A stretch of 64,000 nt of DNA from Natronosalvus vescus (GTDB lineage Archaea; Halobacteriota; Halobacteria; Halobacteriales; Natrialbaceae), in NCBI RefSeq assembly GCF_023973145.1, contig NZ_CP099546.1, positions 496,001-560,000 on the forward strand. Direction: 5' to 3'. The notes below the pieces were generated by a model that saw only the letters and a list, made by a program, of their open reading frames with translations, had not been told where the DNA came from and searched no databases. Below are positions 2,484 to 32,108 of this stretch, one piece after another. How positions within the stretch are numbered: the stretch's first letter is position 1; every line of letters starts with the position of its first letter. The translations under genes were made by a program, and so were the position numbers.

Positions 2484-3902
2484 ATGACCCCACCACTCAG
2501 CAACACCGAACGACGGACGGACGACCGAGCACGCACCGGGCAGACATTCCATCGGGACGCAGAACGTAAAACGTTCGAACACACCGAACCGGACTCGGAC
2601 TCGGGCGTGCAACGTACCCGCGAAGCAACCGTCTGTGTCGTCGGACTCGGCTACGTCGGGCTTCCGCTCGCGGTTGGCTTCGGCGAGGCCGCGTTCGACG
2701 TCATCGGTTTCGACGTCGATGACGAGAAGGTCGACACGCTCCAGGACGGGGTCGACACGACCGGCGACCTGTCGGACGAACAGATCGAAGAGAGCGGCGT
2801 GACGTATACGGCCGATCCGACGACGATCCAGGAAGCCGACTACGTCTTCGTCGCCGTCCCGACGCCGATCGACCGTGACGGCCACCCCGACCTCGACTAC
2901 GTCGAAAGCGCCGCACGCACCGTCGGCTCGAACATGACCGCCGGAACGACGGTCGTCCTCGAGTCGACGGTCTACCCGGGTGCTACGCGCGAAGTTCTCA
3001 TGCCCGCACTCGAGGAGTCCTCCGGCTTTGACGCTGGTGAGGATTTCTTCGTCGGGTACTCGCCCGAACGGGCGACGCCCGGTGACGAGGAACACGGGCT
3101 CGCAGATGTCGTCAAGGTCGTCAGCGGCCAGAACGAAGCGGTGCTCAACGACGTGGCGGCGCTCTATGAGTCGATCGTCGACGCCGGCGTCCACCGCGCA
3201 GCGTCGATCGAGGTTGCTGAGGCGAGCAAAGTCGTCGAGAACACCCAGCGCGACATCAACATCGCGTTCGTCAACGAACTGACGATGGCCCTCGAGGAGA
3301 TGGACGTCGACGCCCACGCCGTCCTCGAGGCGGCCGGGACGAAGTGGAACTTCCACGACTATCGACCTGGACTGGTCGGCGGTCACTGTATCCCGGTCGA
3401 TCCGAACTTCCTCGCCTACCGCGCCGAGCAGTCGGGATTCACGCCCGAACTGATCCACGCGGGCCGAGAGGTCAACGAATCCGTCCCCGCCCACCTCGCC
3501 GAGATTACGATCAAGGCGCTCAACCGCTGTCACAAGACGCTGTGTAACAGCCGCGTGCTGGTACTCGGCCTCGCCTACAAGCCGAACGTCGACGACATCC
3601 GGAGTTCGAAGGTGTCGAACGTCATCGCGCAACTCGAGGACTACGACGTCGACGTCGAGGGCTACGACCCACACGCCGACAACGAGATGGCGCGCGAGGC
3701 GTTCGGCATCGAGATGCAAGATCAGCTCTTGTACGAGGGATTCGACGCGGTCATGGTGGCGACTCCTCACGACGAGTTCGCCGCACTGGATCTCGAGGCT
3801 GTCGCAGCCGACCTCGCGGAGCAACCCGCCTTGATCGACGTCACGGGGGCGGTCGACGAGGCAGCAGCCGCTAAGGCTGGGTTCGTCTACCGGAGGTTGT
3901 AG
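2484..3902 (+). CDS. UDP-N-acetyl-hexosamine/hexosaminuronate-type nucleotide-sugar 6-dehydrogenase
   Basis: This 472-residue protein is of the UDP-glucose/GDP-mannose dehydrogenase superfamily, which oxidises the sugar C6 twice with NAD to give a uronate. The Rossmann motif GLGYVGLPLA is at about residues 54-63. The catalytic cysteine motif GGHCIPVDP has Cys302; the GGHCIPVDP form is typical of the WecC/TviB/WbpA group acting on UDP-N-acetylamino sugars rather than UDP-glucose. The C-terminal domain has VLGLAYKPNVDDIRSS. The first ~48 residues are polar and outside the fold, so a later start such as the GTG near 2607 cannot be excluded. The gene heads an apparent operon with the DUF354, GT4 and GT-C genes and probably supplies an acidic sugar donor for the surface glycan. 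Confidence 0.9.
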   Translation: MTPPLSNTERRTDDRARTGQTFHRDAERKTFEHTEPDSDSGVQRTREATVCVVGLGYVGLPLAVGFGEAAFDVIGFDVDDEKVDTLQDGVDTTGDLSDEQIEESGVTYTADPTTIQEADYVFVAVPTPIDRDGHPDLDYVESAARTVGSNMTAGTTVVLESTVYPGATREVLMPALEESSGFDAGEDFFVGYSPERATPGDEEHGLADVVKVVSGQNEAVLNDVAALYESIVDAGVHRAASIEVAEASKVVENTQRDINIAFVNELTMALEEMDVDAHAVLEAAGTKWNFHDYRPGLVGGHCIPVDPNFLAYRAEQSGFTPELIHAGREVNESVPAHLAEITIKALNRCHKTLCNSRVLVLGLAYKPNVDDIRSSKVSNVIAQLEDYDVDVEGYDPHADNEMAREAFGIEMQDQLLYEGFDAVMVATPHDEFAALDLEAVAADLAEQPALIDVTGAVDEAAAAKAGFVYRRL

Positions 3903-3906
3903 TCCA

Positions 3907-4098
3907 ATGTCCCTTCTCGATTACGACCGCTCGCCAGCACTCGCGACGACGTCAGCGTTGGCGTTTGCGTCCGTCTCCGCTTTCGCGTCTGTGTTCACGT
4001 CAGCGCTCGCGCGAGCACCCGTGCTCGAGAGGGCCTGGCCATCGACACTCGCTTCGTGGCCACCGACACTCGCTTCGGACAGGGGGGTGACCAACTGA
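3907..4098 (+). CDS. Possible 63-codon linker ORF in the operon
   Basis: The ORF starts 5 nt after the dehydrogenase stop and its TGA overlaps the next ATG (TGATG), so translation could be coupled. Its composition is low-complexity (Ala/Ser/Leu/Phe, from a repetitive stretch) and resembles no family I know. It may simply be a degenerate spacer between two operon genes. Confidence 0.2.
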   Translation: MSLLDYDRSPALATTSALAFASVSAFASVFTSALARAPVLERAWPSTLASWPPTLASDRGVTN

Positions 4099-5165
4099 TG
4101 CGCGTGGTCGTGACGATCCAGCACCCTGGACACGTCCACTTCTTCAAACACGCCATCGAGGAGATGGAGGGGCGTGGCCACGAGGTGTACGTCTTCGCCC
4201 GTGAGAACGAGGTCGCCGTCGACCTGCTCGAGGCCTACGACATCGACCACGAGGTGCTCGCTGGAGAGTCGGACTCGTTGCTTTCACTGGCGACGGTACA
4301 GGCAACGTACGAGGCCCGGTTGCTTCGGCGTGCCCGGCAGGTCAAACCGGACGTCATCACGGCGATCGGTGGCGTTGCCGCCGCCCACGTCGCGACGGCC
4401 GTCCGCGCCAGGAGCGTCGTGTTCTACGACACGGAACACGCGAGCCTCATCACGCGGCTTGCTTATCCGTTCGCGGACGTCGTCTGTACGCCCTCGTGTT
4501 ACCGGGGTGACGTCGGCGCGAAACACCGTCGCTATCCCGGCTACCACGAACTGGCCTACCTGCATCCCGACCGATTCGAACCCGACCGCTCGGTGCGAGA
4601 CACCATCGACTGCGATCCATCCGACCCGCTCGTCCTGGCACGAATCAGTAGCTGGGGTGCGTCCCACGACGTCGGGCAGGGCGGCTTCGAGAGCGTTCGC
4701 GACGTCGTCGAGCGTCTCGAGAACGCCGGGGCCCACGTCGTGTTGACGGCGGAGGGAGATCTGCCGGCCAGCCTCGAGTCCAATCAACTCACAACGGCTC
4801 CCGAACGCTTGCACGACTGGCTCGCCGCAGCCGATCTCGTGGTGAGCGAAGGAGCGACGACGGCAGCCGAAGCCGCCGTCCTCGGAACACCAGCGGTGTA
4901 CGTCAACTCCCAGGCGCTCGGCTACACGACCGAACTCGAGGCCCAGTACGGGCTCCTGTTCGCGTTCTACGACGAAACCCGTCACGCGCGTGCGCTAGAA
5001 AAAGCCGTGTCGATCCTCGAGGACGACGACACCGACTGGTCGGCTCGACGGGCCGCCATGTTAGACGAGCGTATCGACGTGACCACGAGAATCGTCACCG
5101 AACTCGAGACCGCTGGTCAGGAACGCGTATCCGACCGATCGCCGGTTGTTGCGAATCCGGGGTAG
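4098..5165 (+). CDS. DUF354 family glycosyltransferase-like protein
   Basis: This 355-residue protein resembles the DUF354 family, GT-B-fold proteins common in archaeal surface-glycan loci and related to the UDP-GlcNAc 2-epimerase/MurG fold. Visible marks are the N-terminal QHPGHVHFFK, the mid motif ITAIGGVAAAHVA and the C-terminal GATTAAEAAVLGTPAVYV, where the nucleotide-sugar would bind. The ATG at 4098 is preferred over an upstream in-frame start because the conserved beta-strand MRVVVTIQ starts there. It lies 4 nt before the GT4 gene. The exact reaction is unknown; transfer or epimerisation of a UDP-sugar is the likely role. Confidence 0.8.
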   Translation: MRVVVTIQHPGHVHFFKHAIEEMEGRGHEVYVFARENEVAVDLLEAYDIDHEVLAGESDSLLSLATVQATYEARLLRRARQVKPDVITAIGGVAAAHVATAVRARSVVFYDTEHASLITRLAYPFADVVCTPSCYRGDVGAKHRRYPGYHELAYLHPDRFEPDRSVRDTIDCDPSDPLVLARISSWGASHDVGQGGFESVRDVVERLENAGAHVVLTAEGDLPASLESNQLTTAPERLHDWLAAADLVVSEGATTAAEAAVLGTPAVYVNSQALGYTTELEAQYGLLFAFYDETRHARALEKAVSILEDDDTDWSARRAAMLDERIDVTTRIVTELETAGQERVSDRSPVVANPG

Positions 5166-5169: not shown

Positions 5170-6138
5170 ATGAACGTGTTACAGCTCGTCACGTCGCCGC
5201 GCCCGTTCTTCGACCAGCAGGTGTCGACCCTCGAAGCACGGGGCGTCGAGTGTACCGTCCTCAGCGTCCCCGGCGAGTACAACGGCGACTCGACGCGTGG
5301 CCCACTCGAGTATGCGCGATACTATCCACAGGTTCTCGGGGAGCTTCGTTCGGGTGAGTACGACCTCGTCCACGCGAACTACGGGCTCGTCGCGCCGTTC
5401 GCGCTCGCCCAGCCGAAACGGCCGGTCGTCCTCACGCTGTGGGGTACCGACCTGATGAGCGACCAGGACTGGCTGCGGACGATCACCCGGCAGGGCGCTC
5501 GGTTTGCCGACGCCGTCGTCGCCCCAAGCCCGGCGATGTCGGCTGCACTCGAGGTCGACCACGAACTCATCCCGTTCGGCGTCGACACCGACCGGTTCAG
5601 GCCTGTTTCGAAAGCGGAGGCGCGCGACCAACTCGGCTGGGACACCGACGAACCGATCGCCCTCTTTCCGTACGACCCGTCCCGTGAGGTGAAAGATTAC
5701 CCGCGAGCCCAACGGGTGGTCGAACGTGCCGACGCCGACGTCGAGTTGCGGGCGGTCACCGGGGTGCCACACGAGGAGATTCCCTTGTACATGAACGCGA
5801 GCGACCTGCTGTTGGTCACCTCCGAACGCGAGAGCGGCCCGATGGTCGTCAAGGAGGCCGCCGCGTGTAACGTCCCGATCGTCTCGACCGACGTCGGCTT
5901 CGTTCGCGAAACGGTTGGCGACGTCACCGGCTGTGTCGTCAGTGACGACGACGCGGCACTCGTCGACGGTATCGAACGGGCTGCCGAGACGTCGATCCGA
6001 CCGGACGCACGAGGTGCCATCGACGGACTGAGCCTCGAGTCGATGGGTGATCGGCTGCTCGAGCTGTATTACGACCTGCTCGAGGGGCCGGTGGACGGCA
6101 GCACCGATCAGGCTGCGGGGGTGACCCAGCGTGCTTAA
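5170..6138 (+). CDS. Glycosyltransferase family 4
   Basis: This 322-residue GT-B enzyme has LTLWGTDLMS in the linker and PFGVDTDRF after it. The donor-binding motif SERESGPMVVKEAAACNVPIV is at about residues 217-237, where the E-x7-E arrangement of retaining GT4 enzymes is recognisable. It is cytoplasmic or membrane-peripheral and would add a sugar from a nucleotide donor to the lipid-linked glycan. It follows the DUF354 gene by 4 nt and overlaps the next gene by 8 nt, so it is in the same operon. The protein is somewhat short for GT4 (usually 350-400), mainly in the N-terminal acceptor domain. Confidence 0.88.
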   Translation: MNVLQLVTSPRPFFDQQVSTLEARGVECTVLSVPGEYNGDSTRGPLEYARYYPQVLGELRSGEYDLVHANYGLVAPFALAQPKRPVVLTLWGTDLMSDQDWLRTITRQGARFADAVVAPSPAMSAALEVDHELIPFGVDTDRFRPVSKAEARDQLGWDTDEPIALFPYDPSREVKDYPRAQRVVERADADVELRAVTGVPHEEIPLYMNASDLLLVTSERESGPMVVKEAAACNVPIVSTDVGFVRETVGDVTGCVVSDDDAALVDGIERAAETSIRPDARGAIDGLSLESMGDRLLELYYDLLEGPVDGSTDQAAGVTQRA

Positions 6139-8110
6139 GACGATCGATCAGTTGCGACCGTTCAGACTCGACACCGTCGCCGCCATCGCGGGTCTCGCGC
6201 TGGCACTGGCGCTGTTACCGCTGCGGCTGTTCGCCTCCCAGATCTACCTCGAGACCGTGCCGATCGTTCTCGGGACGGCGTGTGGGTTGTACCTGCTGTC
6301 GCTGTACCACCAGGGGAACGTGACGTCGCTGCCGACGCTGCCAGGGTCGGTTGCGATGACGCTCCCAACGGTCGTGTTGGCTGGTATTTCGGCCATGATC
6401 GTCCTTCCGGTGGTGCAGGGTGAGCGTACCCTGTTGTTTTTCGCGCTCTCGAGTCTCGTCGGGACGCTGTTGCTCGTCCAGATCGTCTTCACCGACGACG
6501 AGGTGTTTAGCGCGGGCCAGATACTGTTTCAGCTCGTGTGTTTCGCGCTCGTCTTCCGGTTTACGGCGCTGTACGTGACGCCAGGCTACATCGGCATCGA
6601 CATCTGGACGCACATGGAGCTGGCGAACGCGATCCATCAGGAGCGTTCGCTGGCTGCGATCTCCCACGATAAACACTTCGCGTCGCCATTGTATCACCTG
6701 CTGGTCGTCACGGCGTCGTTCCTGTTCGAAGTTCCCCTGCGAACTGCGTTGTACCTGTCCGTCGGGCTCGTGATGCCACTGTCGATTCTGCTGGTGTACG
6801 CGACGACGAACCTGCTGGTGCCTGGCCGGTGGGCGACGCTCGCGGCGGCGCTGTATGCCTTCGCCAGCCACGTCTCGCTGTGGGGGATGCACATCATCCC
6901 GACGAGCCTGGGACTGGTTTTCTTCCTGGGGCTGGTGTACGCGTTGATCCGAGTCATGCGGATCGAGTACACGCTCCGGGACTTCTCGTTGCTCCTGGTG
7001 TTGAGCATCGCCGTTATCCTCACCCACCAGGTGTCGACGTTCATCATGCTCGTACTCCTGGTCGCGGCGTTCATCGCCCAGGTGACGTTCATGATCGGCC
7101 CGTTCGGCCTCACGCGCCTGGACACGAGCGTGTTCCGGGCGAAAAAGCCGGTCAACCTCATCGGGCTGGTCGTGTTCAACTTCGGACTGACCATATTTGT
7201 CTGGTCTCTAACACCCTATCGCGAGCAATCGTTCCTCGCGACGGTGTTGAGCTTCTTCGGACAAACCATCGAAGAGAGCGCTGGTTTCCTCAACATTGCG
7301 AGCCAGACTGACAGCGATTCGGCAGAACAGAGTGCCGCGGCGGCCGATCCGTCACTGCTCGAACAGGCCGTCCCCTACACCGACGCGGCGGGCTTCCTGC
7401 TCTTGCTGGGGCTGACGTTCGCCGGCTGTCTGTACGTCGTCCACCGACGTCGCGCCGAGCAGTCGGTGTTCACGCTGTTGCTCGCGGCGGCGTTCATGCT
7501 GGTGTTCGTCCTCGGGTTGCCGATGTTCGGCATCCGGAATTTCATCCCGACCCGGTGGTTCGCGTTCCTGTTCGCGCCGATGGCGATCCTCGGCGCGGTC
7601 GGGGTTCGCCTGCTGGTACGGGATCTCAACCCGGCGTTCGTCGTCGCCTGTCTGTTACTGGTCGTCCTGGTGTACCCGGGGGCGATGATGCTGGCTGTAG
7701 AGAGCAACACCGAGAACCCCGTGTTCTCGAGCCAGCACGAACGACTGGCCTACGACGAATCCGAACTGGTCGCTGCCGGGTCGATCGCCCAGCTGACGGG
7801 TTCACCCGACGGACAGGACATTCGCCAGGATCAACGGCTGTACACTGACCACCCCTATCAGACGTTGATCAGTCGAACCGGGGCGTATCAGTCGACGATG
7901 GCAGGCACCGTCCCCACTGATGGTACTGCCGACCACGAGTACACGCTGTACCGAACGACGCAGTCGTCCGAAAGCGTCTACTTCCAGGACGAAGACGGGC
8001 ACGCCCAACTCGGTACCATCGACCGGGCACAGCTCTGTCGACCCGACCAGGCAACGGTGTACACGAACGGTGACGTAACGCTGTGTACGCCGTCGCCGGT
8101 CAGCAGCTAG
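6131..8110 (+). CDS. GT-C-like polytopic membrane protein (putative lipid-linked sugar transferase)
   Basis: This 659-residue protein has about a dozen hydrophobic segments and a C-terminal extracellular domain of about 120 residues. After the first few helices comes TPGYIGIDIWTHMELANAI, followed by PLYHLLVV. This resembles the D-x-W/H first-loop arrangement of GT-C transferases (AglB/PMT/ArnT type), which use polyprenyl-phosphate sugars on the outer face. It starts with GTG at 6131, overlapping the GT4 stop, so translation is coupled. It is a candidate for polymerising the glycan or adding side residues outside the membrane. GT-C membership is inferred from layout and motif only. Confidence 0.65.
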   Translation: MLKTIDQLRPFRLDTVAAIAGLALALALLPLRLFASQIYLETVPIVLGTACGLYLLSLYHQGNVTSLPTLPGSVAMTLPTVVLAGISAMIVLPVVQGERTLLFFALSSLVGTLLLVQIVFTDDEVFSAGQILFQLVCFALVFRFTALYVTPGYIGIDIWTHMELANAIHQERSLAAISHDKHFASPLYHLLVVTASFLFEVPLRTALYLSVGLVMPLSILLVYATTNLLVPGRWATLAAALYAFASHVSLWGMHIIPTSLGLVFFLGLVYALIRVMRIEYTLRDFSLLLVLSIAVILTHQVSTFIMLVLLVAAFIAQVTFMIGPFGLTRLDTSVFRAKKPVNLIGLVVFNFGLTIFVWSLTPYREQSFLATVLSFFGQTIEESAGFLNIASQTDSDSAEQSAAAADPSLLEQAVPYTDAAGFLLLLGLTFAGCLYVVHRRRAEQSVFTLLLAAAFMLVFVLGLPMFGIRNFIPTRWFAFLFAPMAILGAVGVRLLVRDLNPAFVVACLLLVVLVYPGAMMLAVESNTENPVFSSQHERLAYDESELVAAGSIAQLTGSPDGQDIRQDQRLYTDHPYQTLISRTGAYQSTMAGTVPTDGTADHEYTLYRTTQSSESVYFQDEDGHAQLGTIDRAQLCRPDQATVYTNGDVTLCTPSPVSS

Positions 8111-9303: not shown

Positions 9304-9879
9304 TTATTGAATTCGGTCGGAAACCCACCACCACAGATCCGAGACGAACGGTGCGCCATCGGAGAGCCAGAGCACGACGATTCCACCCCCAAGGCCGATC
9401 TGGAGCAGTACCTGTGTCGTCAGTCCATCGCTGAGGAGGATATTCACGTACCTGGCGAAGTAGACGACGAAGTGATCGAGAAGGCCACCGTGATCGTTCG
9501 CGGGTGGTGACGCGAGCGGCCACAGTACGACTCGCGGTTCGATACTCCCTCCGCGCAACCATGGGTAGAGCACGTCCGTAAGGAGGTGGGACAGATACGC
9601 GATCGAGAAGGCGATTGCGATCGGACGGTCGTTCATCCGGACTGCCAGCAGGGAGATACCGAGACAGACGAACGGGGCGACGAAGATCGAGTGGCCGATG
9701 GCGTATCCCGTTTCAGTAATACCGAACGTCCAGGCCAGCGGCTTGTCCACGAGATCAGGTACCTGCGATCCGAGGACGACCGCGGCTGTTTCACGACCCG
9801 TTGGTGACCGTCCGCTCACCAGATGTGCGTACAACGAGTAGCAAAGATAGGCAACCGCAAGGTGCTCCCACGGCCACAT
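9304..9879 (-). CDS. DUF457-type membrane-bound putative metal-dependent hydrolase
   Basis: A 191-residue protein with about five transmembrane helices. Its N-terminus MWPWEHLAVAYLCYSLY and GSQVPDLVDKPLAW place it in the YdjM/DUF457 family, annotated as membrane-bound metal-dependent hydrolases. Likely ligands are His6, the Asp of PDLVDK, His85-like residues in IGHSIF and the SHLLTD motif. The substrate is unknown. Its start lies 1 nt from the stop of the upstream DUF1616 gene, so the two form a two-gene operon. In haloarchaea such genes recur beside surface-polysaccharide genes. Confidence 0.75.
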   Translation of the reverse strand: MWPWEHLAVAYLCYSLYAHLVSGRSPTGRETAAVVLGSQVPDLVDKPLAWTFGITETGYAIGHSIFVAPFVCLGISLLAVRMNDRPIAIAFSIAYLSHLLTDVLYPWLRGGSIEPRVVLWPLASPPANDHGGLLDHFVVYFARYVNILLSDGLTTQVLLQIGLGGGIVVLWLSDGAPFVSDLWWWVSDRIQ

Positions 9880-9880: not shown

Positions 9881-10870
9881 CTACTGAACCACGATCGGCA
9901 GGTGAATCACCCTGTAGGCGTTTTCGCTGTTGGGGTCGTCCGGTGGGTCACCTTCGTACAGCAACACCGTCAGCCGGAGATCGTCGCCTTGCATCGTCGG
10001 CGTTACCTCGAGCGTCTGGTGGTGTTGCTCGCCGTCGGGGACGGTTGCCGATGCGTGTTGCAGCTGTTCGCTCTCGTGGACGGTCGCTTCGTCGCCGTCG
10101 TAGCTCACCTGCTCGAGTAACACGACGGTCGTGTACGTCCGTTCCTCGTGTTCGTGGTTGGTTATCAGAACGGGCAGTTCCTGTGTCTCGCCAGCGGTGT
10201 ACGTCGACTGGTACATCGTCTCGGTGTCGCTGGTCACGTCTTCGGTATCGACGGCGAACTCGGTGAATCCGTCGTGTTGGGGTGGGTTGGCGACGGCGAA
10301 CCCGGCAGTGGCGACCAACAGGAGTAATCCGATGGCGATGCCGACGTTGTACGGTCGTAGGTTTCGCTTTTCGGACGGTGGTGACTGTGTCTGGGTGAAA
10401 AATGGAACCGACAACGGAAGGGTTGGCGTGAACCGTTGATCGGTCGGATATCGGGCACGGGCGATGATCGCAAGTACTGTCAACCCAATGGTGAGTGCTG
10501 AAATCCCGAAGATCACTGTTTCGGGCGCAAAACCCCTGGGGGTAACGTGCGTGAAAAGGGCAACTACGGGAACGAGGAATACGCTACATACCACTGACAG
10601 GACTAGCCGTTCGATTAGCTCGAGTCCACCGGTGACGAGCAGGGGGTTTCGAAGGCCGGTTCGCTCCGCGTCGAAGGGGTAGTACTCCTCGGACGGGTCG
10701 TCCGGAAACAGTACTGAAACCAGGGCATACCCCGGTAAAACGAGGAGTAGCGGCAATGCAATGACGATCCGTCCAACGCCTGGAACACCGAGTAAGAGGC
10801 CGAACGAAAGGGCACCAGTCACCAGGATGACGAGCGCCAGATCGAGGAACCACCAGTTCGTATCGCTCAT
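9881..10870 (-). CDS. DUF1616 membrane protein
   Basis: A 329-residue protein. Four or five transmembrane helices are followed by an extracellular C-terminal domain of about 120 residues with CARDB/beta-sandwich-like sequence (STYTAGETQELPVLITNHEHEERTYTTVVLLEQV). LVLPGYALVSVLFP is the hallmark of the archaeal DUF1616 family, which recurs in cell-surface glycan loci. The function is not known; a role in assembling or retaining extracellular polymer is plausible from location. It is first in the operon with the DUF457 gene, and its promoter is at 10900-10918. Confidence 0.8.
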   Translation of the reverse strand: MSDTNWWFLDLALVILVTGALSFGLLLGVPGVGRIVIALPLLLVLPGYALVSVLFPDDPSEEYYPFDAERTGLRNPLLVTGGLELIERLVLSVVCSVFLVPVVALFTHVTPRGFAPETVIFGISALTIGLTVLAIIARARYPTDQRFTPTLPLSVPFFTQTQSPPSEKRNLRPYNVGIAIGLLLLVATAGFAVANPPQHDGFTEFAVDTEDVTSDTETMYQSTYTAGETQELPVLITNHEHEERTYTTVVLLEQVSYDGDEATVHESEQLQHASATVPDGEQHHQTLEVTPTMQGDDLRLTVLLYEGDPPDDPNSENAYRVIHLPIVVQ

Positions 10871-11263
10871 ACGCGTCGTGTAAACGAGGTGCTGGGGGAT
10901 TATTACAGGCTCAATAAGTGGTGACTCGAGTGTGGTGTTGTCCCGTTCTCGTGAACCATCTGTCTGATAACTGACGACGTTTCGATACCGGCCGAAATTC
11001 AGTGCGTTGAACCGTCTCGATACGACACGAACGGTTACAAAACAATCGTTAAATTCCTCTTGCTATTCTGTGATGTATATGTTTCTGCATTTGAAAATTT
11101 ACATCGGAAACTGGCGTCTCAGGGTCTGTGTGGCAGATATGAAAGGTTGTGAAACAAGTTAAAGGGTGCTTGAGGTGGGGATAAAATCAGATGAAACGTA
11201 CTGTTCAGCAGTGGACTATTTCTATCCTTTATTACCTCCCCCTGATTTGTGGAGACTGGTGCG
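10871..11263. other. Divergent intergenic region, AT-rich centre
   Basis: The gap separates the divergent DUF1616 and DUF7344 genes. The stretch 11030-11210 is clearly more AT-rich than its surroundings. No RNA gene, repeat copy or convincing ORF is visible. Confidence 0.5.
10900..10918 (-). promoter_or_regulatory. Promoter of the DUF1616 gene
   Basis: On the minus strand CTTATT (10918-10913), 5 nt, then TGTAATAA (10907-10900). The predicted transcription start lies only a few bases before the ATG at 10870, giving a near-leaderless mRNA. Confidence 0.5.
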
Positions 11264-17959: not shown

Positions 17960-17988
17960 TCCACCCCTCTCTCTCGCCACGGACGTAT

Positions 17989-22331: not shown

Positions 22332-22389
22332 TCCACCACGCCTGCGCAGACATCCACATGGACATGGTTCACCACACCGGAGGCGACTG

Positions 22390-23622: not shown

Positions 23623-23702
23623 ATAGTAACCACTGGCACGTCAATCTACATCCGATCGCCAGCCGTCTCGGTGATCGGTGTACCGACTGGTTGAGTGGTG
23701 GC
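23623..23702. repeat. Palindromic repeat family A, degenerate copy 2
   Basis: It has the left end ATAGTAACCACTGG and core GATCGCCAGCCGTCTCGGTGATC of the family. The right end has decayed. The central stem is largely kept. Confidence 0.65.
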
Positions 23703-23826
23703 GTCATTCCCACGAGTATCATAAGCCCCTGACTCGAGTATCAGGTCTGGACGAGCAGCGTCTGTTTCCGGGTAGGGTGTCGGCTGCTGGGCAAACCCTT
23801 TGTGCCTTCCACGGAATGTAAACCAC

Positions 23827-24252
23827 ATGAAACAACCGGAGTGGTTCCGGTCGCTTCCGACCTGGGCCAGGGTCATCGGTGGACTGCTCGGTCTCCTGGT
23901 CGTCATGACTGGGCTCTCGATGGTACTTGGTGTCGTCTTCGCCGGAATCGCTCTGGGGCTCGAGTTCGGTAGCGTAACGTTGGGGCTCCTCGCTGCCGTC
24001 GTCGGGTTGGTACTCGTCCTCGTTCCAACCGCCGCACTGGTGATGATCCGCACCGGTGACGACCGTGGTGTCGACGCTGGAGACGAGGTCGAAACGCTCA
24101 AAGAGCGATATCTCGCCGGTGAGATCGACGAGGCGACGTTCGAGCGACGCGTCACCGAACTGCTCACCGCCGCAGATGCATCCCAGGAGTCGGCCGCGAC
24201 CGATTTCGATGGGCGGGACGTCGAACGGATGCCGAAGCGCGAACGACAGTGA
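23827..24252 (+). CDS. SHOCT-domain small membrane protein 2
   Basis: A 141-residue protein with the same plan as the 16188 product. A tryptophan-containing N-terminus (MKQPEWFRSLPTWARV) is followed by two transmembrane helices (about 15-75). The SHOCT motif (VETLKERYLAGEIDEATFERRVTELL) is at about 90-118. The ATG at 23827 begins the conserved part; an earlier in-frame start adds nine unlikely residues. Function unknown. Confidence 0.75.
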   Translation: MKQPEWFRSLPTWARVIGGLLGLLVVMTGLSMVLGVVFAGIALGLEFGSVTLGLLAAVVGLVLVLVPTAALVMIRTGDDRGVDAGDEVETLKERYLAGEIDEATFERRVTELLTAADASQESAATDFDGRDVERMPKRERQ

Positions 24253-24311
24253 GTCGACGCACTATTCGTGTCACACAACCTACTTATAATCGCTGCCAGT
24301 TGTGGTAACTG

Positions 24312-24644
24312 ATGGCTGGCGACACGGATACGGAGGTGGAACAGTACGTCGGATATCCGCGCCAAACGGTAGTTCTCGAAGCGGTTCGAATCGCCTATGC
24401 GATTGGGATCAGTGGTGCGGTAACCGTGGTGATCGCACTCGGCTGGTACTGGTTCGATCCAGGCGTTTCTCCGGGAGCAGAGCGGATAGGCGTATTGCTC
24501 TTGATCTTCTTTCCGACAGCGTTCGCTCTCGGACTGTACACGTACGATCGGCGCCACAGACGAGATCTCGTCATTGCCGACGCAGTAGTGCGTGTCGTCA
24601 GACCATTTGCCGCACTGATCCGACTTCTCCGGGGCGCCTCGTAA
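24312..24644 (+). CDS. Small two-helix membrane protein, unknown
   Basis: A 110-residue protein. A charged N-terminus with VEQYVGYPRQTVVLEAVRIAY precedes two transmembrane helices (about 30-50 and 58-76). A basic stretch YDRRHRRDLVIADAV and an amphipathic C-terminus follow. A TATA-like CTTATAATC lies about 27 nt before the ATG, and codon use is like that of its neighbours, so I take it as real. I do not recognise the family. Confidence 0.6.
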   Translation: MAGDTDTEVEQYVGYPRQTVVLEAVRIAYAIGISGAVTVVIALGWYWFDPGVSPGAERIGVLLLIFFPTAFALGLYTYDRRHRRDLVIADAVVRVVRPFAALIRLLRGAS

Positions 24645-25130
24645 TGCGAGACACACTCGAGCTCGAGCAATATAGTAGCCATTGCAAGTCAATGCACATT
24701 TGATCGCCAGACATGTCGGCGATCAGTGTGTAAATCGTTGCAGTTGTTACTATAGCACGGCGTAGGCTCCCCTATCGGATCTCTCATCCGGTTGCGAGAC
24801 GTGGTGCGCTCGCCGGTGACGGCTTTCGATCACCGGAATCAACGGCTTCGTCGGTACGTGACTGCCATACGTTGATGCTTCTTGGTCGGAGAGAGCCGTC
24901 GTCTCGCCTCGGGCAAGTCCATCCGACTGGTTACACTTTGAATTTTATACTAATACACTACAACATGTGTGCTATTGTGTATCACCGTTTCAGCCAATTC
25001 TCGGGGGACGGCACCGACGTTCTGACAGGAACCGTTCTTGCGGTGAGACCGCGCGGGTTGATCGGTGTGAGATGACGGGTCGAAATCGGCGACGCAGAGG
25101 CAACCCGGGAGGGGCGACGACGTGTCCGAC
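24645..25130. other. Intergenic region with one repeat copy
   Basis: It contains the best-preserved family A palindrome (24671-24754). The rest (24755-25130) has an AT-rich stretch near 24940-24985 and no ORF I can support. Confidence 0.6.
24671..24754. repeat. Palindromic repeat family A, copy 3 (best preserved)
   Basis: 84 nt, nearly a complete inverted repeat. Left end TATAGTAGCCATTGCAAG pairs with right end (reverse) TATAGTAACAACTGCAAC. The central stem is GATCGCC/GGCGATC around the 9-nt loop AGACATGTC. Confidence 0.9.
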
Positions 25131-26768
25131 TCAGGGTAGAAGTCCGTTGAGCCACGGCCCGATGAAGCCGAGAACGAGTCCAGCGACGAACAACGAGAGC
25201 CCGACCGCGAACAACAGCCCCTGGAGCACGCTTGGCGGCGAGGAGACACCACGGGTGCCCTCGAGGCGGCATTCGATCGTTTTCGCTCGTGACCCAACTG
25301 GATCGGGGAATTCCGACAGGATCGTAAACGGTTCGGCGAGATCGAGGGCTCCCATGAGGATCGCGAACGCGAGGAAAATGCCGAGGCCGACGGGCGGAAC
25401 CACGATGAGGGCGACCCACGGGTTGGTGATGGCCGCCGCGAGCGCGAAGATGGGGAGTCCGGCGAGGCCGGTGGCTGCGATGGCACGGCTGAGTCGGGCA
25501 TCCGCCAGCGGGTCGAATCCGACCAGGCGGGCGCTCCAGACGTGGAAGACGAACATCGATCCGTAGCCGACACTCGTCGCGATAGCCGCGCCGTGCATCC
25601 CGTAGCGCGGGATCAGGAGGACGTTCAGGATGACGTTGATTCCCGCAGCGACGCCCGTCGCCGCAACCGGATATCGAAGCGTCCCGTTGCCCTGTGAGAC
25701 CGCGAGCACCGGGCGTGCGAGGGCAAAGCCGAGTGCACCCGGGAGCAACAGCAACAGCGGGGCGATCGCCGGAGTGGCGTCCGAGCCGAAGTAAATCGGC
25801 ACGGCGACGTCGGCCAGTGCAGCCAGCCCGACGGCCATCACGGCGGTCAGCAGGAACGTATAGCGCGTGGTTCGTGACGCGAGCGAGCTGATCTTGTCGT
25901 GGCGGTTCTGTGACCAGAGTTCAGACGTCGAGTGGACGTACACCGTCTGTAACGCCAGCGGGACGAACCAGAGGAACTCCGCGAGCGTCAACGCGGCACG
26001 GTAGTTCCCCACGTCCGAACTCGGGCGGAACTGCTGGAGCATCACGATGTCGATGTGATACAGCGACATCAACAGGAAGACGAGAACGATGCTCATCGAA
26101 TTGAATGTCAACATCTCCCGGCGGGGGAACCTCGCCGGCGGCTTCGACCTGATACAGGCCAGCGATTCCCGTCGGTGGATGAGTACGAGCCCGATTGCCC
26201 CGACGAGCAGGCTCCCGATCAGATGGCCAGCGAGTGCGCCGACGACGCCGAATCCGACGTACACGAGCGGGATCGCGACGACGACGAAGCCGACGGTGTC
26301 GAGCACCTTCAGCGGCTCGGAGTAGCGCTCGAGTCCGAACCCCATCAGGGTTTTCCGGGCGTAATCGCGAAACTGCGCGGTGATGACGAGGACAGCGAGC
26401 ACGACAAAATACAGCTGATACTCCGGGCCGAACGCCAGCGAGACCAGTTCGAAGTAGACGGCGACGAGCAACAACAGCGCGCCGACGCCGGCGAAGAGGA
26501 TCGCGAGTCGAAGGTAGAATCCAACGACGTAGCCACTCCAGTTGTCGGTCTTGCGATCCTCGGCGAGGTACTTTCGTACTCCGTCGGTGATCCCGGAGCT
26601 GACGAAGATCATGTAGATGGCGAACACCGAGAGGACGAACGCGTAGTCGCCAAACCCGGATGGACCGAGGAGCCGGTACAGGAGCGGCGTCGAAAGTGCG
26701 GTGACGAGAAGGACGATAACCTTCGCGCTCACGACCGAGAGGACGCCGCTAGCGATACTCCTGTTCAC
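25131..26768 (-). CDS. Wzx-like polysaccharide flippase (MOP superfamily)
   Basis: About 545 residues with 12-14 predicted transmembrane helices. The N-terminus NRSIASGVLSVVSAKVIVLLVTAL and LLGPSGFGDYAFVLSVF are typical of archaeal oligosaccharide flippases of the MATE/MOP superfamily, which move lipid-linked glycans to the outer face. I chose the GTG at 26768. Upstream GTG (26792) and TTG (26849) starts exist, but the TTG lies before the predicted transcription start and 26768 begins the conserved region. The C-terminus has an extra hydrophobic pair after a polar stretch. The promoter is at 26866-26884. Confidence 0.88.
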   Translation of the reverse strand: MNRSIASGVLSVVSAKVIVLLVTALSTPLLYRLLGPSGFGDYAFVLSVFAIYMIFVSSGITDGVRKYLAEDRKTDNWSGYVVGFYLRLAILFAGVGALLLLVAVYFELVSLAFGPEYQLYFVVLAVLVITAQFRDYARKTLMGFGLERYSEPLKVLDTVGFVVVAIPLVYVGFGVVGALAGHLIGSLLVGAIGLVLIHRRESLACIRSKPPARFPRREMLTFNSMSIVLVFLLMSLYHIDIVMLQQFRPSSDVGNYRAALTLAEFLWFVPLALQTVYVHSTSELWSQNRHDKISSLASRTTRYTFLLTAVMAVGLAALADVAVPIYFGSDATPAIAPLLLLLPGALGFALARPVLAVSQGNGTLRYPVAATGVAAGINVILNVLLIPRYGMHGAAIATSVGYGSMFVFHVWSARLVGFDPLADARLSRAIAATGLAGLPIFALAAAITNPWVALIVVPPVGLGIFLAFAILMGALDLAEPFTILSEFPDPVGSRAKTIECRLEGTRGVSSPPSVLQGLLFAVGLSLFVAGLVLGFIGPWLNGLLP

Positions 26769-26865
26769 GGTGTCATCCCCCCGTACCAACACGACGACGT
26801 GACGACTCCTCGTCGAGAGACCCGCTGCACGCTCACAATATTTTGACAAGGGGTTCCGCCGGGCC

Positions 26866-26929: not shown

Positions 26930-28591
26930 CTACTCGAGGGTGTTCGCCCAGGTGTCCACGCCGCTCGCACCGAGGTCACGAATGCCGTTGACCAGTCGGT
27001 TCTTCCTGAACGAGGGGTTGCTCGAGGAGGAGTACAGACAGACGGCGTGACGGCCGCCGGTGGACTCGAGGTCGGAATCACGCACGAGGTTGTCAGCACC
27101 GATGTCGATGTAGGGGTACTGGCTGGCCCGGAGCGTACTCCGGTAGACGGTCGTGTCTGCTGCCGTGCTGACGATGGCGTTTCGACTCGCTCCATCGCGC
27201 CCGGGCTGGGCAATGTCGACGTTGCTGAACCGGCAGTTGTCCCGTTCGACCCGAACTCCGTCGCGGAAGCCACTGGCGTCGCCAGCGCGCCCGGAGACCG
27301 AGAGGTGTTCGGCGAGGACTCGATCGTTCGTATTTCCGCCACGGATCCACAGCGGATAGCCGCCCACAGTTTCGTGGACGATTTCTGAGTTCGTGATTGT
27401 GACTTCGCCACACTCCGGCGAGAGGACGATTCCGTGGTTGATGTCGTTGCCACGCATGTCGACTCGAACGCGCTCGATACGAGCGCTTTGACAGGAGTTC
27501 ATCGTGGAGATCGCGTGGCTCGTCGGCATCGGCGACGACACTTCGACGGCAGCGCCGTATATCCGGATGTTATTGCCGTTTTCGACCCGGATTCCCCGTT
27601 GCGTCTTGTCCTCCGGGCGGGTGTTGTCGACCCTGATCGTTGGCCACCTGATCTCGCTGTTGTCACCGCCGACGCGGATGTTCGCGCCATTGCTGTTCCG
27701 GTAGAGTCCTCCGAGGACGCGTACCCGGCCACCGCCACCAACGGCGTAGAGACCGTTGTTCGGGAACGCCCCAACGACGCAATGTCTGAACGTGAGGGTG
27801 CCTTTGTTCTGGTTGGCCTCGATGCCGATTGGGCCGCGCCAGCGGTTACCGGCGTTCGGCGTGTTGTTGATCCAGGCAGCGCCGTCGGGTGCTCGGAACC
27901 GTTCGACGATCCCGCTCCCGCTCGGGTCGGTGATGTTGAACAGACCAGGGCCCCACGTTCCGCTGTCGTGTTGGCCGTGGATCGTAACGTCACGCACGGC
28001 CATGTCCTGGGAGATATTGGCCTCGATGACACGGATTCCCGTATCTGGGGCCGTCTGATCGACGTCGAAGCCCTCGAATCGGAGCCGTCGACCCGGCCTG
28101 TACGTGACGCCGAGACGGAACAGCCGGAACCGCGGGCCGTCGAAGTCGTAGTAGTTCGCCGGCACGAGCGTCGCGTTCTCGCCGACCATCCCGAAGTTAT
28201 CGAATCCGGTGTACCGGAACTGTTTGTCCATGTAGTACCGGCCTTCGGGGAACACGAGCAGCGTGTCGTCCGCTCGCAGATTCTCCAGAACGGGAGTAAT
28301 CGACTCCGATCCCGTGTTGTCCGCACCCGCTTCGACGACGTTGATGACGTTCGAGTAGTCGTCGTAGTGGTGTGAGTACTGTCCCGTCGAGGCACTCGCC
28401 GTCGAGGCACCCGTCGTCGAGAGCCCGAGCAGCGAGGCACCGGCGACCGCCATTCCCCCCATGAACGTTCGCCGTGATCGACGGCCGATCGAAGATTGTT
28501 CGGACGAGTTGTGCGTGCAGTTTGAATCGATCGAGTGAGTTTCAGTCAAATTCTCAGAATCTGAGTCTATCGAGCCGCTTCGTTTCACCAT
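26930..28591 (-). CDS. Tat-exported right-handed beta-helix protein, paralogue 2
   Basis: A 553-residue paralogue of the 19293 product. An unusually long polar n-region (about 36 residues) precedes the twin-arginine motif GRRSRRTFMGGMAVAG. The mature part has the same entry (VVEAGADNTGSESITPVL, LLVFPEGRYYMDKQF) and the shared block HDSGTWGPGLFNI, followed by beta-helix rungs to the C-terminus. The two proteins align across most of their length; this one is longer in the signal and in late rungs. The likely substrate is the exported polysaccharide, as a lyase, epimerase or structural binder; catalytic residues are not identifiable. Confidence 0.82.
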   Translation of the reverse strand: MVKRSGSIDSDSENLTETHSIDSNCTHNSSEQSSIGRRSRRTFMGGMAVAGASLLGLSTTGASTASASTGQYSHHYDDYSNVINVVEAGADNTGSESITPVLENLRADDTLLVFPEGRYYMDKQFRYTGFDNFGMVGENATLVPANYYDFDGPRFRLFRLGVTYRPGRRLRFEGFDVDQTAPDTGIRVIEANISQDMAVRDVTIHGQHDSGTWGPGLFNITDPSGSGIVERFRAPDGAAWINNTPNAGNRWRGPIGIEANQNKGTLTFRHCVVGAFPNNGLYAVGGGGRVRVLGGLYRNSNGANIRVGGDNSEIRWPTIRVDNTRPEDKTQRGIRVENGNNIRIYGAAVEVSSPMPTSHAISTMNSCQSARIERVRVDMRGNDINHGIVLSPECGEVTITNSEIVHETVGGYPLWIRGGNTNDRVLAEHLSVSGRAGDASGFRDGVRVERDNCRFSNVDIAQPGRDGASRNAIVSTAADTTVYRSTLRASQYPYIDIGADNLVRDSDLESTGGRHAVCLYSSSSNPSFRKNRLVNGIRDLGASGVDTWANTLE

Positions 28592-29215: not shown

Positions 29216-29299
29216 TATAGTAGCCACTGCAAGCCATTGCACACCTGATCGCCAGACGTATCGGCGATCAGTGGGTGAACCGTTTCAGTTGTTACTGTA
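29216..29299. repeat. Palindromic repeat family A, copy 4
   Basis: 84 nt. Ends TATAGTAGCCACTGCAAG and (reverse) TACAGTAACAACTGAAAC; core TGATCGCC-AGACGTATC-GGCGATCA. It is very close to copy 3. Confidence 0.88.
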
Positions 29300-29423
29300 G
29301 CGCTCGAGTAGTCGCAAACGTCGGGCTCTACAGTACCGATAGTCGCCCGCTGACTGCCGGCATCAGGCCGCAGCTATCGAGTATCGGTTCGGTCTCACGT
29401 AATCGGCTGCGAGAAAATCGCGG

Positions 29424-30092
29424 TCAGCGGTGATTTCGTCGACCGGGTGTTCGATCGTTCTCGAGGGTGGCGGCGATCAACTCGGCGACGGCACGACGAT
29501 GGCGCTGTGAGACAGCCGACGTGGAGATGCCGAGCTTTTCTGCCAGGTAATCCTGTGACACCGCTCGTGGAATCTCGTAGTAGCCGGCGTAGTACGCCAT
29601 CGAGAGAATCTCGTGTTGTTGTTCGGTGAGAAAGTAGGTACCGTCGTCAGAGACCATCGAATCGTAGAGCTGGGTCATCCGGAACGATATCGAGTGGCTT
29701 CGACAGTAGTCCTGAAACGCGGTCAGCGCGTCGCGGTCGGGCATATGGGTTCGTACCATCCAGTCATCTTCGCCGCTCGTAATCCGGAAGACGAACACCC
29801 CATAGGCGGCGCACTTCTCTGGCAGTAAGTCGAGATCCGTCTCGACGGTGATTCGATAGATTGCCCGGTTTTCGAACGTGGCGACGTGTGTCGGGTTCGA
29901 CACGGTGTGATCGTCCACCATCGTCTCTTCGATGGCATCGTATTCACCGCCGAACACGGACACGAAACACAGGTCGTTCTGGGCAGCCGTGGCACTGTAC
30001 TCGTACCGAATCGTCACGTCAGGATGTGTCTCGATCGTCGGCATTAACACGAGATCGGGGTGATCGATCGAGAGGGTTGCAACGAATCCCAT
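29424..30092 (-). CDS. Bat-type HTH_10 transcriptional regulator
   Basis: A 222-residue protein. The N-terminal two thirds is a haloarchaeal bacterio-opsin-activator-like sensor region (ITVETDLDLLPEKCAAYGVFVF and others). The C-terminal HTH_10 domain begins LTEQQHEILSMAYYAGYYEIPRAVSQ and ends with the helix-turn-helix LAEKLGISTSAVSQRHRRAV. I chose ATG 30092; a GTG 6 nt earlier is possible. No ligand domain can be named. Its own promoter carries the hexamer-TATA layout of the glycan genes, so it may belong to the same circuit. Confidence 0.85.
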   Translation of the reverse strand: MGFVATLSIDHPDLVLMPTIETHPDVTIRYEYSATAAQNDLCFVSVFGGEYDAIEETMVDDHTVSNPTHVATFENRAIYRITVETDLDLLPEKCAAYGVFVFRITSGEDDWMVRTHMPDRDALTAFQDYCRSHSISFRMTQLYDSMVSDDGTYFLTEQQHEILSMAYYAGYYEIPRAVSQDYLAEKLGISTSAVSQRHRRAVAELIAATLENDRTPGRRNHR

Positions 30093-30134
30093 GGCCACTT
30101 GTGTACATCTTGTCCAGTTATGAACAAACGCTCA

Positions 30135-30153: not shown

Positions 30154-30308
30154 CACTGTTGCAATGGTTGCACGTATCACAAATCGATAGCTGGCGTCGC
30201 ATTCTGGCAGTCATTGCACCCTGATCAGCATCCATTGCGTCCCACGCCGACTCAATACAAACCGATTATTCCTGCTCCGAATCAGCAGGATACGTTGGGG
30301 GTCGCTGT

Positions 30309-31985
30309 TCAGTTCATGTAGCCCAGGTCGGCGAGTCGCTGTGTGACCGCCTCGTCGGCGTCGTCTCGAGGCGTCGATGTCGCCCCTTCGTACTGTTCGT
30401 ACGACTCGGCACCTATGGCGTCGACGACCGGAATTACGTCGCCGTCCATCCGATCGCTGTGAGGGAGTCCAAACGCCGCCATGATCGTCGGTGCAACGTC
30501 GAAGAGGTGTGCTCGATCGATTGGCGCAGCCTCGTCGACGCCCGCTCCCATCGCGGCGAACACGCCGTCGAGTTTGTGGTTCCACGGCTCTGCCGGAGCG
30601 AAGTACTCTCCGTGGAGTTGCTCCGACAGCGCGTGTTCGAAGTCGGTCGGGATCGTCACGATGTCGACGGTCTCGTCTTCGTGCTCGCCGTGGAAATACG
30701 CCTCACGTGGGGCGACTGTCTCGAACACGGGTTCCCCTTCGGGCGTCGTCACGCCCTCGAGCGTCTCGATGAGATCCTCACGAACCGACTCGTACTCCGT
30801 CGGCGGAACGACGCCGTTTGGCTCACGTCCCTCGAGGTTGATTCGAACGCCGAGTTCGGTTCGTGCACGGACGTACGCCGTCGACGCTTCGAAATCGACC
30901 TGTTCGTTCGCCGTTCGCGAGACGTTGGTCGGTGCGTACTTGATCGCGACGTCAGCGAGGCCGACCCGCTCGAGGGCGACTCTGGCGCGACGTGCGGTGA
31001 GTCCGAATCGAGCAGCGATGGCGGCGGCACGTTCGGTCATCGTCGGTTCCCAGCTATCGCAGTTTTTCCCCTCGCGAAGCTGATTGCGCATCGGCGTCCA
31101 CGACGGCATCCCCTTCCCGCCCGTCGTCGTCTCGACGTATCCTTCGTCACGGAGGAAATCGTTGATACGGAACTCGTAGCCCTCGTACGGCCCCATTCCG
31201 TGATCGCTCACCAGGAAGACGGTGTCGGGATCGCAGTGGTCGAGAACCGCTCCAATCTGTTCGTCGGTCGCTTCGTACACCGTGTCCACGCGTTCTTCGT
31301 CACCCTCGAACTCGTGAAAGACCGTGTCGGGCTTTTGAAACTGAACGAAGCCGAAATCCGGGTCGTACTCGTCAGCGAGGTACCGGAACGCCTCCCCGCG
31401 CATCCGGATCAGCCGCTGGTACTCCGCGATTTTCTCGTCGTCAGACACCGAGTCGTCGTCGCGGGCGTAGTTTGGATAGACGCGATACTCACCAATGGCG
31501 TCGCGAACGTCCTCGAGCAGTCCCGATGGGTGACAGTTCGGATCTTCGGGACCGATGAACCCCGGGATCAAGGCACCCTCGAAACTGTCCGGTGGGTGAG
31601 TGATGGGTGCGTTGACCACGACGCTCGAGTACCCGTGCTGGTTGAGTAGCGTCCACACTGGATGTTCATCGACGTCGTCGCTACTCGTGACGTGCCAGTC
31701 GTAGCCGTCGTAGCCAACGAACCCGATGGCACCGTGTTTCCCCGGATTGACGCCCGTGTACATCGATGGCCAGGCGCTCGGCGTCCACGGCGGGATCTGT
31801 GACTCGAGCGGGGCACTCACGCCCGTGGTACACAGGTGTTCGATGTTCGGGATTCGATCGGCTTCGAAGAGGCGTTCGAACACTGGCAAACAGCCCGCGT
31901 CGATGCCGATGAGAAGCACGTCCATCCCGTCGGTTCCGTTCCGTTTGGTCGATACGTCTCCGTTTTGAGGGGGCTTCCGAGTCAT
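30309..31985 (-). CDS. Alkaline-phosphatase-superfamily phosphodiesterase/nucleotide pyrophosphatase
   Basis: About 558 residues. DVLLIGIDAG (first metal Asp), PPWTPSAWPSMYTGVNPGKHGAIGF (nucleophile Thr/Ser region), and VSDHGMGPYEGYEF (metal Asp-His) are the core of type I phosphodiesterase/nucleotide pyrophosphatase proteins. The family hydrolyses phosphodiesters or transfers phospho-groups to glycans. Archaeal members often sit in surface-glycan loci, with unknown substrates. There is no signal peptide, so it is probably cytoplasmic. The ATG at 31925, immediately before the first strand, is an alternative start. Promoter at 32109-32127. Confidence 0.82.
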   Translation of the reverse strand: MTRKPPQNGDVSTKRNGTDGMDVLLIGIDAGCLPVFERLFEADRIPNIEHLCTTGVSAPLESQIPPWTPSAWPSMYTGVNPGKHGAIGFVGYDGYDWHVTSSDDVDEHPVWTLLNQHGYSSVVVNAPITHPPDSFEGALIPGFIGPEDPNCHPSGLLEDVRDAIGEYRVYPNYARDDDSVSDDEKIAEYQRLIRMRGEAFRYLADEYDPDFGFVQFQKPDTVFHEFEGDEERVDTVYEATDEQIGAVLDHCDPDTVFLVSDHGMGPYEGYEFRINDFLRDEGYVETTTGGKGMPSWTPMRNQLREGKNCDSWEPTMTERAAAIAARFGLTARRARVALERVGLADVAIKYAPTNVSRTANEQVDFEASTAYVRARTELGVRINLEGREPNGVVPPTEYESVREDLIETLEGVTTPEGEPVFETVAPREAYFHGEHEDETVDIVTIPTDFEHALSEQLHGEYFAPAEPWNHKLDGVFAAMGAGVDEAAPIDRAHLFDVAPTIMAAFGLPHSDRMDGDVIPVVDAIGAESYEQYEGATSTPRDDADEAVTQRLADLGYMN

Positions 31986-32108
31986 CGTATCATCTGGTTG
32001 CACTCCTGTTCGTCCACTGACCGGTCGATTTCCCACTCACCGATCTGTTACGAACGAGTTCCTGTGCGAACCGGTTATTCACGAGAGGACGAAACAACCC
32101 TGCACACT

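Follow-up and report, generated by a model that had tools for sequence, protein, structure and literature searches.

What is made by the block of nucleotide-sugar, glycosyltransferase and exported-enzyme genes at the left of this stretch of Natronosalvus vescus DNA, and do these genes form a single system? The 64,000 nucleotides analysed here (the window) correspond to bases 496001-560000 of a genome (G000) that consists of a single contig of 3.84 Mb. A prediction made earlier from the letters alone (the original prediction) had read positions 2484-32036 as one exopolysaccharide (EPS) system with several transcripts and duplicated extracellular modifying enzymes. Our analysis shows that the conserved locus is real. 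It is very probably a haloarchaeal locus for an acidic amino-sugar EPS, related to that of Haloferax mediterranei but equipped with additional exported proteins that would trim the polymer and with an uncommon enzyme for its assembly. It probably makes and finishes an acidic EPS, or a loosely held capsule, of N-acetylated hexosaminuronic acid by a lipid-linked, flippase-dependent route.

Pfam models were run against 26 open reading frames (ORFs) and NCBIfam models against ten; for the part of the window from 36 to 64 kb, the annotation consists of the ORF, tRNA and Rfam listing. Every gene class that had been predicted (a dehydrogenase, four glycosyltransferase-like proteins, a flippase, pairs of NodB-like and beta-helix proteins, and aspartoacylase-like, AsnB-like and DUF1616 proteins) was found in its place, and the alternation of strands along the locus implies several transcripts, as proposed. 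The right end also held, with the phosphodiesterase gene as the last member and the archaeal RNase P RNA (32220-32648) next to it. The left end lies further out, at glmS, the divergent neighbour of the dehydrogenase gene ugd. The parts list was incomplete in one respect: it had missed a 659-amino-acid (659-aa) protein with a predicted GT-C fold, which gave no match in the Pfam and NCBIfam scans and whose linkage to AsnB extends through the order. The members of the locus are as follows (Tat, twin-arginine translocation).

1-190 (5' part; whole gene G000:C1:494385-496190), minus strand: glmS, glutamine--fructose-6-phosphate transaminase, amino-sugar supply; 60% identical to GlmS of the H. mediterranei locus.
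2484-3902, plus strand: ugd, UDP-N-acetylhexosamine-type nucleotide-sugar 6-dehydrogenase (PF03721/PF00984/PF03720).
4056-5165, plus strand: DUF354-family GT-B glycosyltransferase (PF04007, E 1.7e-12).
5170-6138, plus strand: GT4-family glycosyltransferase (PF00534/PF13439).
6131-8110, plus strand: 659-aa polytopic transferase with a predicted GT-C fold (AlphaFold2 model), candidate polymer assembler.
9304-9879, minus strand: YdjM-like membrane protein, optional (PF04307); homologue in the H. mediterranei locus.
9881-10870, minus strand: DUF1616 membrane protein (PF07760, E 5.6e-82).
11249-11875, plus strand: DUF7344 protein, probable regulator (PF24035).
12731-14434, minus strand: AsnB-like protein, probable ATP-dependent amide ligase, lacking the glutaminase cysteine (weak TIGR01536 match; residue motifs).
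14694-16061, plus strand: NodB1, Tat-exported lipoprotein, CE4 polysaccharide deacetylase with an intact metal triad (PF01522).
16793-17980, minus strand: AstE/aspartoacylase-type metallohydrolase, Tat-exported, with a PKD domain (PF24827 and PKD).
18242-19234, minus strand: gt2a, GT2 glycosyltransferase (PF00535).
19293-20786, minus strand: bh2, second beta-helix protein, lineage-specific in the locus; 45% identical to bh1.
21027-22331, plus strand: NodB2, Tat-exported lipoprotein of NodB1 architecture, without the CE4 metal site (no Pfam match).
22285-23481 (likely true start about 22393), plus strand: gt2b, GT2 of the polyprenyl-phosphate sugar synthase type (PF00535).
25131-26849, minus strand: Wzx/MurJ-type polysaccharide flippase (PF01943, E 2.8e-16; 60 bits against a cut-off of 28).
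26930-28591, minus strand: bh1, Tat-exported right-handed parallel beta-helix protein (PF13229; AlphaFold2 model).
29424-30098, minus strand: Bat/HTH_10 transcriptional regulator (PF04967/PF15915).
30309-32036, minus strand: type I phosphodiesterase-family protein (PF01663, E 6.9e-37).

Conservation was examined first in the family Natrialbaceae, in a sample of 125 genomes. From these, 40 with AsnB and a beta-helix gene on one contig were selected, so that the counts of AsnB and bh1 among them are given by design, and regions of about 40 kb (one shorter, at a contig end) were compared at a threshold of at least 45% identity and at least 60% coverage. Gene order was kept in 39 of the 40 regions, the exception being G029, and the block recurs in Natronosalvus, Natronorubrum, Natrinema, Natrialba and others. 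The gt2a gene was present in all 40 regions; the DUF354, GT4, 659-aa, DUF1616, DUF7344 and flippase genes in 39 each; ugd and gt2b in 38 each; and NodB1 and HTH_10 in 37 each. Lower counts were obtained for the phosphodiesterase (31), NodB2 (30), the AstE-like gene (26) and YdjM (19), and in some genomes the best match of gt2b adjoined ugd instead of NodB2. Without pre-selection, a strong AsnB match occurred in 84 of the 125 genomes and was missing from 41; the locus is dispensable within the family. All 74 family genomes with a close relative of bh1 also carried AsnB, at a distance of at most 25 kb in 71 of them. The genes form one locus and not a chance grouping, as the prediction of a single system had implied.

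The linkage extends to the order. In a sample of 392 genomes, with at most three candidates scored per genome, AsnB was matched in 186 and the 659-aa profile in 158. Among the matches listed, 64 genomes outside the family had a strong AsnB. The 659-aa gene was present in 62 of them and lay within 26 kb of AsnB in 48 of the 64. From genome size, we estimate that chance would produce such closeness in about one to two percent of cases per gene pair. Twenty order-level loci were then chosen for an AsnB and a GT-C gene within 26 kb, which fixes those two counts by design. They contained ugd (20), DUF354 (18), glmS (17), gt2b (16), GT4 (15), DUF1616 (14), YdjM and DUF7344 (13 each), a beta-helix gene (11) and gt2a (8). 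The recurrent core consists of ugd, the DUF354 glycosyltransferase, GT4, the GT-C protein, the AsnB-like protein, DUF1616 and GlmS. NodB1 was found in only 3 of the 20 loci, one of them (L194) nearer to NodB2, which indicates that the deacetylases are largely an addition of the Natrialbaceae. The scattered homologues that would have spoken against a locus were not observed: linkage of the genes is kept throughout the family and, for the core, throughout the order.

Which sugar does the locus handle? The dehydrogenase scored 407 bits with TIGR03026; the next NCBIfam model, TviB, gave 350 bits, under its cut-off of 592, and the best PDB relatives were 4r16, 3ojl and 3g79. Judged by sequence similarity, its nearest relatives are N-acetylhexosamine dehydrogenases. 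A glmS match adjoins ugd in 39 of the 40 family regions, several of them clipped by the region end, and five full-length glmS-like genes are present in the genome. The affinities of the dehydrogenase together with the adjoining glmS support the oxidised amino sugar of the original prediction, whose chemistry is broadly right.

A described relative of the locus exists. Searching plasmids with the 659-aa protein as query led to the megaplasmid pHME505 of H. mediterranei ATCC 33500 (NZ_CP039140.1, about 442-471 kb). Homologues there include ugd (56% identity), DUF354 (50%), the GT-C protein (43%), AsnB (43%), gt2a (49%), gt2b (51%), the flippase (39%), two beta-helix proteins (36-38%), YdjM (37%), DUF1616 (29%), AstE (43%), HTH_10 (34%) and GlmS. 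However, the 42-kb stretch contains neither NodB1 nor NodB2, its gt4 is only weakly similar (26%), the gene order is different, and GlmU, an ATP-grasp protein, an acyltransferase and a second dehydrogenase occur in addition. The feature set of this type of EPS locus, namely a linked UDP-N-acetylhexosamine dehydrogenase, a DUF354 glycosyltransferase, a GT-C protein, an AsnB-like protein and GlmS, is present in the window. On the basis of gene content and of the location of the H. mediterranei EPS cluster, presumably on this megaplasmid, we infer that the pHME505 locus is the genetically studied EPS cluster of that organism, presumably the one of Han 2012 and Zhao 2013.

Published work describes the identification of an EPS gene cluster in H. 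mediterranei, the deletion of which eliminated EPS (PMC5467301), and a repeat unit of N-acetylglucosaminuronic acid (GlcNAcA), mannose and 3-sulfated GlcNAcA (PMC3191746). The arrangement in the window had been regarded as undescribed in archaea, which is right only in part: the H. mediterranei locus has the same core, including two beta-helix proteins, and for that organism both the genetics of an EPS cluster and the structure of the EPS are known. Literature searches returned no publication describing the window locus itself, which is not proof that none exists. The comparison ties a family-wide locus to the H. mediterranei EPS system, the only one we found among haloarchaea for which genetic work and the structure of the polymer are both available. 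Beside or within the H. mediterranei locus we also observed genes for a DegT aminotransferase, a Gfo/Idh/MocA oxidoreductase, an acyltransferase and two sugar dehydrogenases (L184 45962-48086; L182 14168-17449). Such a gene set is that of a WbpA/B/D/E-type diacetamido-uronic acid pathway; it contrasts with the published repeat, which shows only GlcNAcA.

Other haloarchaea offer partial parallels. The EPS of Haloterrigena turkmenica is described as containing glucosamine and glucuronic acid (PMC5467301), and exopolysaccharide-like material was seen by electron microscopy in Natrialba magadii (PMC3403918). In Haloarcula hispanica, AepG (HAH_1206) is a DPM-type dolichyl phosphate (DolP)-sugar synthase serving an acidic EPS and not the surface-layer (S-layer) N-glycan (PMC9943897), a role that we likewise propose for gt2b; its product, however, is DolP-glucuronic acid, and its gene lies in a cluster with aglB. 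A further H. hispanica cluster, HAH_1661-1667, encodes glycosyltransferases, a polysaccharide biosynthesis protein and an arylsulfatase (PMC5467301). Neither the term 'deacetylase' nor 'asparagine synthase' (or 'asparagine') appears in these two texts (PMC9943897, PMC5467301).

How would the polymer be assembled? The locus shares cytoplasmic glycosyltransferases and a Wzx-type flippase with bacterial Wzx/Wzy-dependent assembly, but no Wzy polymerase or Wzz-type chain-length regulator was recognised by Pfam families among the 26 ORFs scanned, where a divergent one could have gone unrecognised. Since neither a Wzy nor a synthase was recognised among the scanned ORFs, the 659-aa protein is the sole candidate assembler. 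An AlphaFold2 model built from 33 sequences had a mean predicted local distance difference test (pLDDT) score of 61. Foldseek searches of the PDB with this model returned enzymes that we class as GT-C in all of the best 25 rows. With VIA-align, the highest score was obtained for yeast STT3 (Z 23.8, root-mean-square deviation 5.0, 396 residues aligned), followed by AglB (20.8), ArnT (18.9) and AftA (18.6); Z ranged from 14.8 to 23.8 across the STT3/AglB/PglB rows, and, among the rows listed, the first that we take not to be GT-C appeared at rank 46 (Z 7.7). An alignment profile of the family found nothing among PDB sequences, and NCBI names some relatives GT39 or DUF2206. The model points to a GT-C fold and suggests that the protein works like a polyprenyl-linked-sugar transferase. 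The WWD(YG) motif of oligosaccharyltransferases was found in none of 39 orthologs, nor in the window protein or the H. mediterranei homologue, and we do not class the protein as an oligosaccharyltransferase.

The resemblance to STT3 and AglB raises the alternative that the locus is a second protein-glycosylation pathway, in which the GT-C protein would act as an oligosaccharyltransferase, attaching the acidic oligosaccharide to proteins of the S-layer or elsewhere on the cell surface, where it would be trimmed by the exported enzymes. The AglJ-like character of gt2b would agree with this, and alternative Agl pathways do occur in haloarchaea. The lack of the WWD motif argues against it, as does the fact that ArnT and AftA, which are not oligosaccharyltransferases, score close behind STT3 and AglB; moreover, the H. 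mediterranei homologue of the locus comes from an organism that produces EPS. The canonical machinery is also encoded elsewhere: AglB (847 bits) maps to 2.689 Mb and AglJ (457.7 bits) to 2.704 Mb, a pair separated by about 12 kb and lying 2.2 Mb from the EPS locus. The locus is accordingly not the AglB N-glycosylation locus, and gt2b, with 61.7 bits on TIGR04182 (cut-off 325), is not AglJ; the pathway is separate from AglB/AglJ N-glycosylation. We consider protein glycosylation by the locus unlikely. A second, weak STT3-like match (91 bits, below cut-off) was observed at G000:C1:3205338-3206612.

The AsnB-like protein, which had been proposed to change carboxyl groups, was examined next. Amidation is possible, but the protein is not an ordinary amidotransferase. 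It scored 34 bits on TIGR01536 (asn_synth_AEB), below the cut-off of 267; TIGR03108 (eps_aminotran_1/WbpS) was not among its matches up to E 0.1, and its alignment profile found nothing among PDB sequences. Cys2, the nucleophile of class II glutaminases, occurred in none of 41 family sequences (the window and 40 orthologs) and in none of 21 from other loci, so the protein is not an ordinary glutamine-dependent amidotransferase. The S-x-G-x-D-S pyrophosphate loop of the synthetase, which binds ATP, was intact in the window protein, in 40 of 40 family orthologs and in all 21 others. These residues suggest that the AsnB-like protein is probably an ATP-dependent amide ligase using ammonia or an amine. 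A precedent is WbpS (PGN_1234), an AsnB-type enzyme that forms a uronamide from an N-acetylated uronic acid in Porphyromonas (PMC7468200). What the window has in common with WbpS, WbqG and PGN_1234, which are uronic-acid amidotransferases, is a gene of AsnB type placed among surface-glycan genes for N-acetylated uronic acids; the window protein differs in lacking the glutaminase cysteine and in matching no NCBIfam amidotransferase model except, weakly, asn_synth_AEB.

An amide ligase would also fit a covalent cell-wall or sheath polymer, in which AsnB would form amide bonds to amino acids, in place of a released EPS. Polymers of the cell wall are known from Natronococcus (glutaminylglycan) and Halococcus (sulfated heteropolysaccharide). 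The pairing of an AsnB-type ligase with an AstE-type amidohydrolase in one locus is in keeping with such a product, and so is the compact version of the locus, lacking bh1, NodB2 and AstE, that was found in Natronococcus (L160, L162, L163 and L170). A metagenome-assembled locus, L159, has the compact version too. Nevertheless, a strong AsnB is missing from the 41 family genomes noted above, and the core spans the order, more broadly than the wall types named; we judge a wall polymer to be quite improbable.

What happens to the polymer outside the cell? A twin-arginine motif was found in NodB1, NodB2, bh1, bh2 and the AstE-like protein, and a lipobox in both NodB proteins. NodB1 exceeds the PF01522 cut-off, and its metal ligands (D248-D249, H304-x-x-H307 and H414) are invariant in 18 of 18 sequences. 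In NodB2, R-P-x-T-G replaces HxxH in 18 of 18 and the second Asp of motif 1 is absent; with this loss of the CE4 metal site, metal-dependent deacetylase activity is unlikely, and a reading of both NodB-like proteins as active deacetylases was rejected. The two are distinct ortholog groups, 23-30% identical where the query of one group finds only the other. The AstE-like protein keeps the zinc motifs HxxE and DLHES (ligands HxxE...H) in the window and in 15 of 15 extracted orthologs.

For bh1, the structure prediction that had been suggested as a check gave a right-handed parallel beta-helix with a pLDDT of 85. Its structural matches included a cyanophage tailspike (Z 30.6), AlgE6 (29.4), AlgE4 (29.1) and the lyase RbmB (27.5). 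Identity to AlgE-type epimerases and beta-helix lyases is 13-14%, and phage tailspikes score equally high; the modelled fold is compatible with a lyase, an epimerase, a hydrolase or a binder alike. The beta-helix profile gave one weak relevant match among PDB sequences. A gene of the bh2 class lay no more than 25 kb from AsnB in 11 of the 53 family genomes holding both, and a doubled beta-helix as a general feature of the locus was rejected, the second gene usually being elsewhere. Modification outside the cell, as predicted, is supported by an intact CE4 deacetylase and beta-helix proteins, while duplicated modifying enzymes are not upheld as the hallmark of the system: NodB2 has no metal site and bh2 normally lies outside the locus.

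Degradative enzymes, too, have beta-helix and CE4 folds, and the exported beta-helix, NodB and AstE-like proteins could in principle degrade environmental polymers for utilisation. Their conserved linkage with biosynthetic glycosyltransferases, a flippase, glmS and the dehydrogenase speaks against this, and no sugar ABC transporter was found by Pfam among the ORFs scanned, which makes polysaccharide utilisation very improbable.

As a side observation, among solved structures the best match covering most of NodB1 was chain TC of 8qpg, a 'Prokaryotic polysaccharide deacetylase' (E 5e-21), in a structure that we take to be a haloarchaeal tailed-virus particle; an EPS deacetylase of the host and a structural protein of a virus may have the same two-domain architecture. 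Many extra relatives of NodB1 were seen outside the locus in Natronococcus, Saliphagus and a Natrialbaceae metagenome-assembled genome (L132-L134, L136-L137, L139-L149, L152-L154, L156-L158).

Gene content, linkage between genomes, folds and the presence or absence of catalytic residues are what the data show. For the acidic EPS that we favour, we infer the identity of the sugar, the order of the steps and the roles of the polymerase and of AsnB as follows. GlmS would feed uridine diphosphate N-acetylglucosamine (UDP-GlcNAc), which the dehydrogenase would oxidise to the UDP-linked N-acetylhexosaminuronic acid (HexNAcA); some of the carboxylates may be amidated by the AsnB-like ligase. An oligosaccharide built on a polyprenyl-phosphate lipid by the DUF354, GT4 and GT2 enzymes would be flipped by the Wzx-type protein, and the 659-aa protein would join or extend the units on the outer side, perhaps drawing on a polyprenyl-phosphate sugar supplied by gt2b. 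NodB1 would then strip N-acetyl groups from the polymer; bh1 (and bh2) would bind to it, cleave it or act as epimerases; the AstE-like protein may cut acyl or amide bonds; and NodB2 may act on the polymer without a CE4 metal site. The best reading is one of lineage-variable exported modifiers and a GT-C transferase as candidate assembler. We further propose, tentatively and as a possibility about which we remain doubtful, an order-wide haloarchaeal mode of assembly without Wzy or synthase: a WWD-less GT-C protein of STT3/ArnT fold would polymerise or extend lipid-linked HexNAcA units outside the cell, a glutamine-independent AsnB would amidate uronic acids with ammonia or an amine, and the exported NodB, beta-helix, NodB-like and AstE-like proteins would be lineage-specific finishers. 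Two uncharacterised proteins are thereby singled out, the GT-C protein for polymer assembly and the cysteine-less AsnB for an amidation step.

Several points weigh against the acidic EPS pathway as drawn. In every genome used here the polymer is predicted from genes, and the GT-C model is of middling confidence. The equation of the pHME505 locus with the deleted EPS cluster is itself deduced. The H. mediterranei EPS is published as N-acetylated and no NodB occurs in the 42 kb, so deacetylation is not shared; the published repeat has no amide although the locus has AsnB; and no sulfotransferase was seen by Pfam among the 26 ORFs scanned.

Some features of the window lie between or beside these genes. 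The ORFs for MscS (8171) and SHOCT (16071) and a 173-aa ORF (28779) were considered as members and rejected as bystanders, because none of the 40 relatives carries them. The ORF at 23646-24692 matched no family in the Pfam scans. A dispersed element of about 86 bp occurs at 24670-24756, 29216-29301 and 996-1081, with two copies inside the EPS locus; the stretch of 23.5-25.1 kb that separates gt2b from the flippase carries this repeat. The element folds into a single long hairpin (-39.8 kcal/mol, z -7.5) and has at least 42 matches in the genome (40 candidates scored). Among other genomes, at least 40 matches each were found in G111, G114 and G116, 20 in the incomplete G117, one in G113 and none in G112 and G115. 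Finally, a 106-base tRNA called by Rfam at 42562-42667 and absent from the ARAGORN list is probably an intron-containing tRNA gene.

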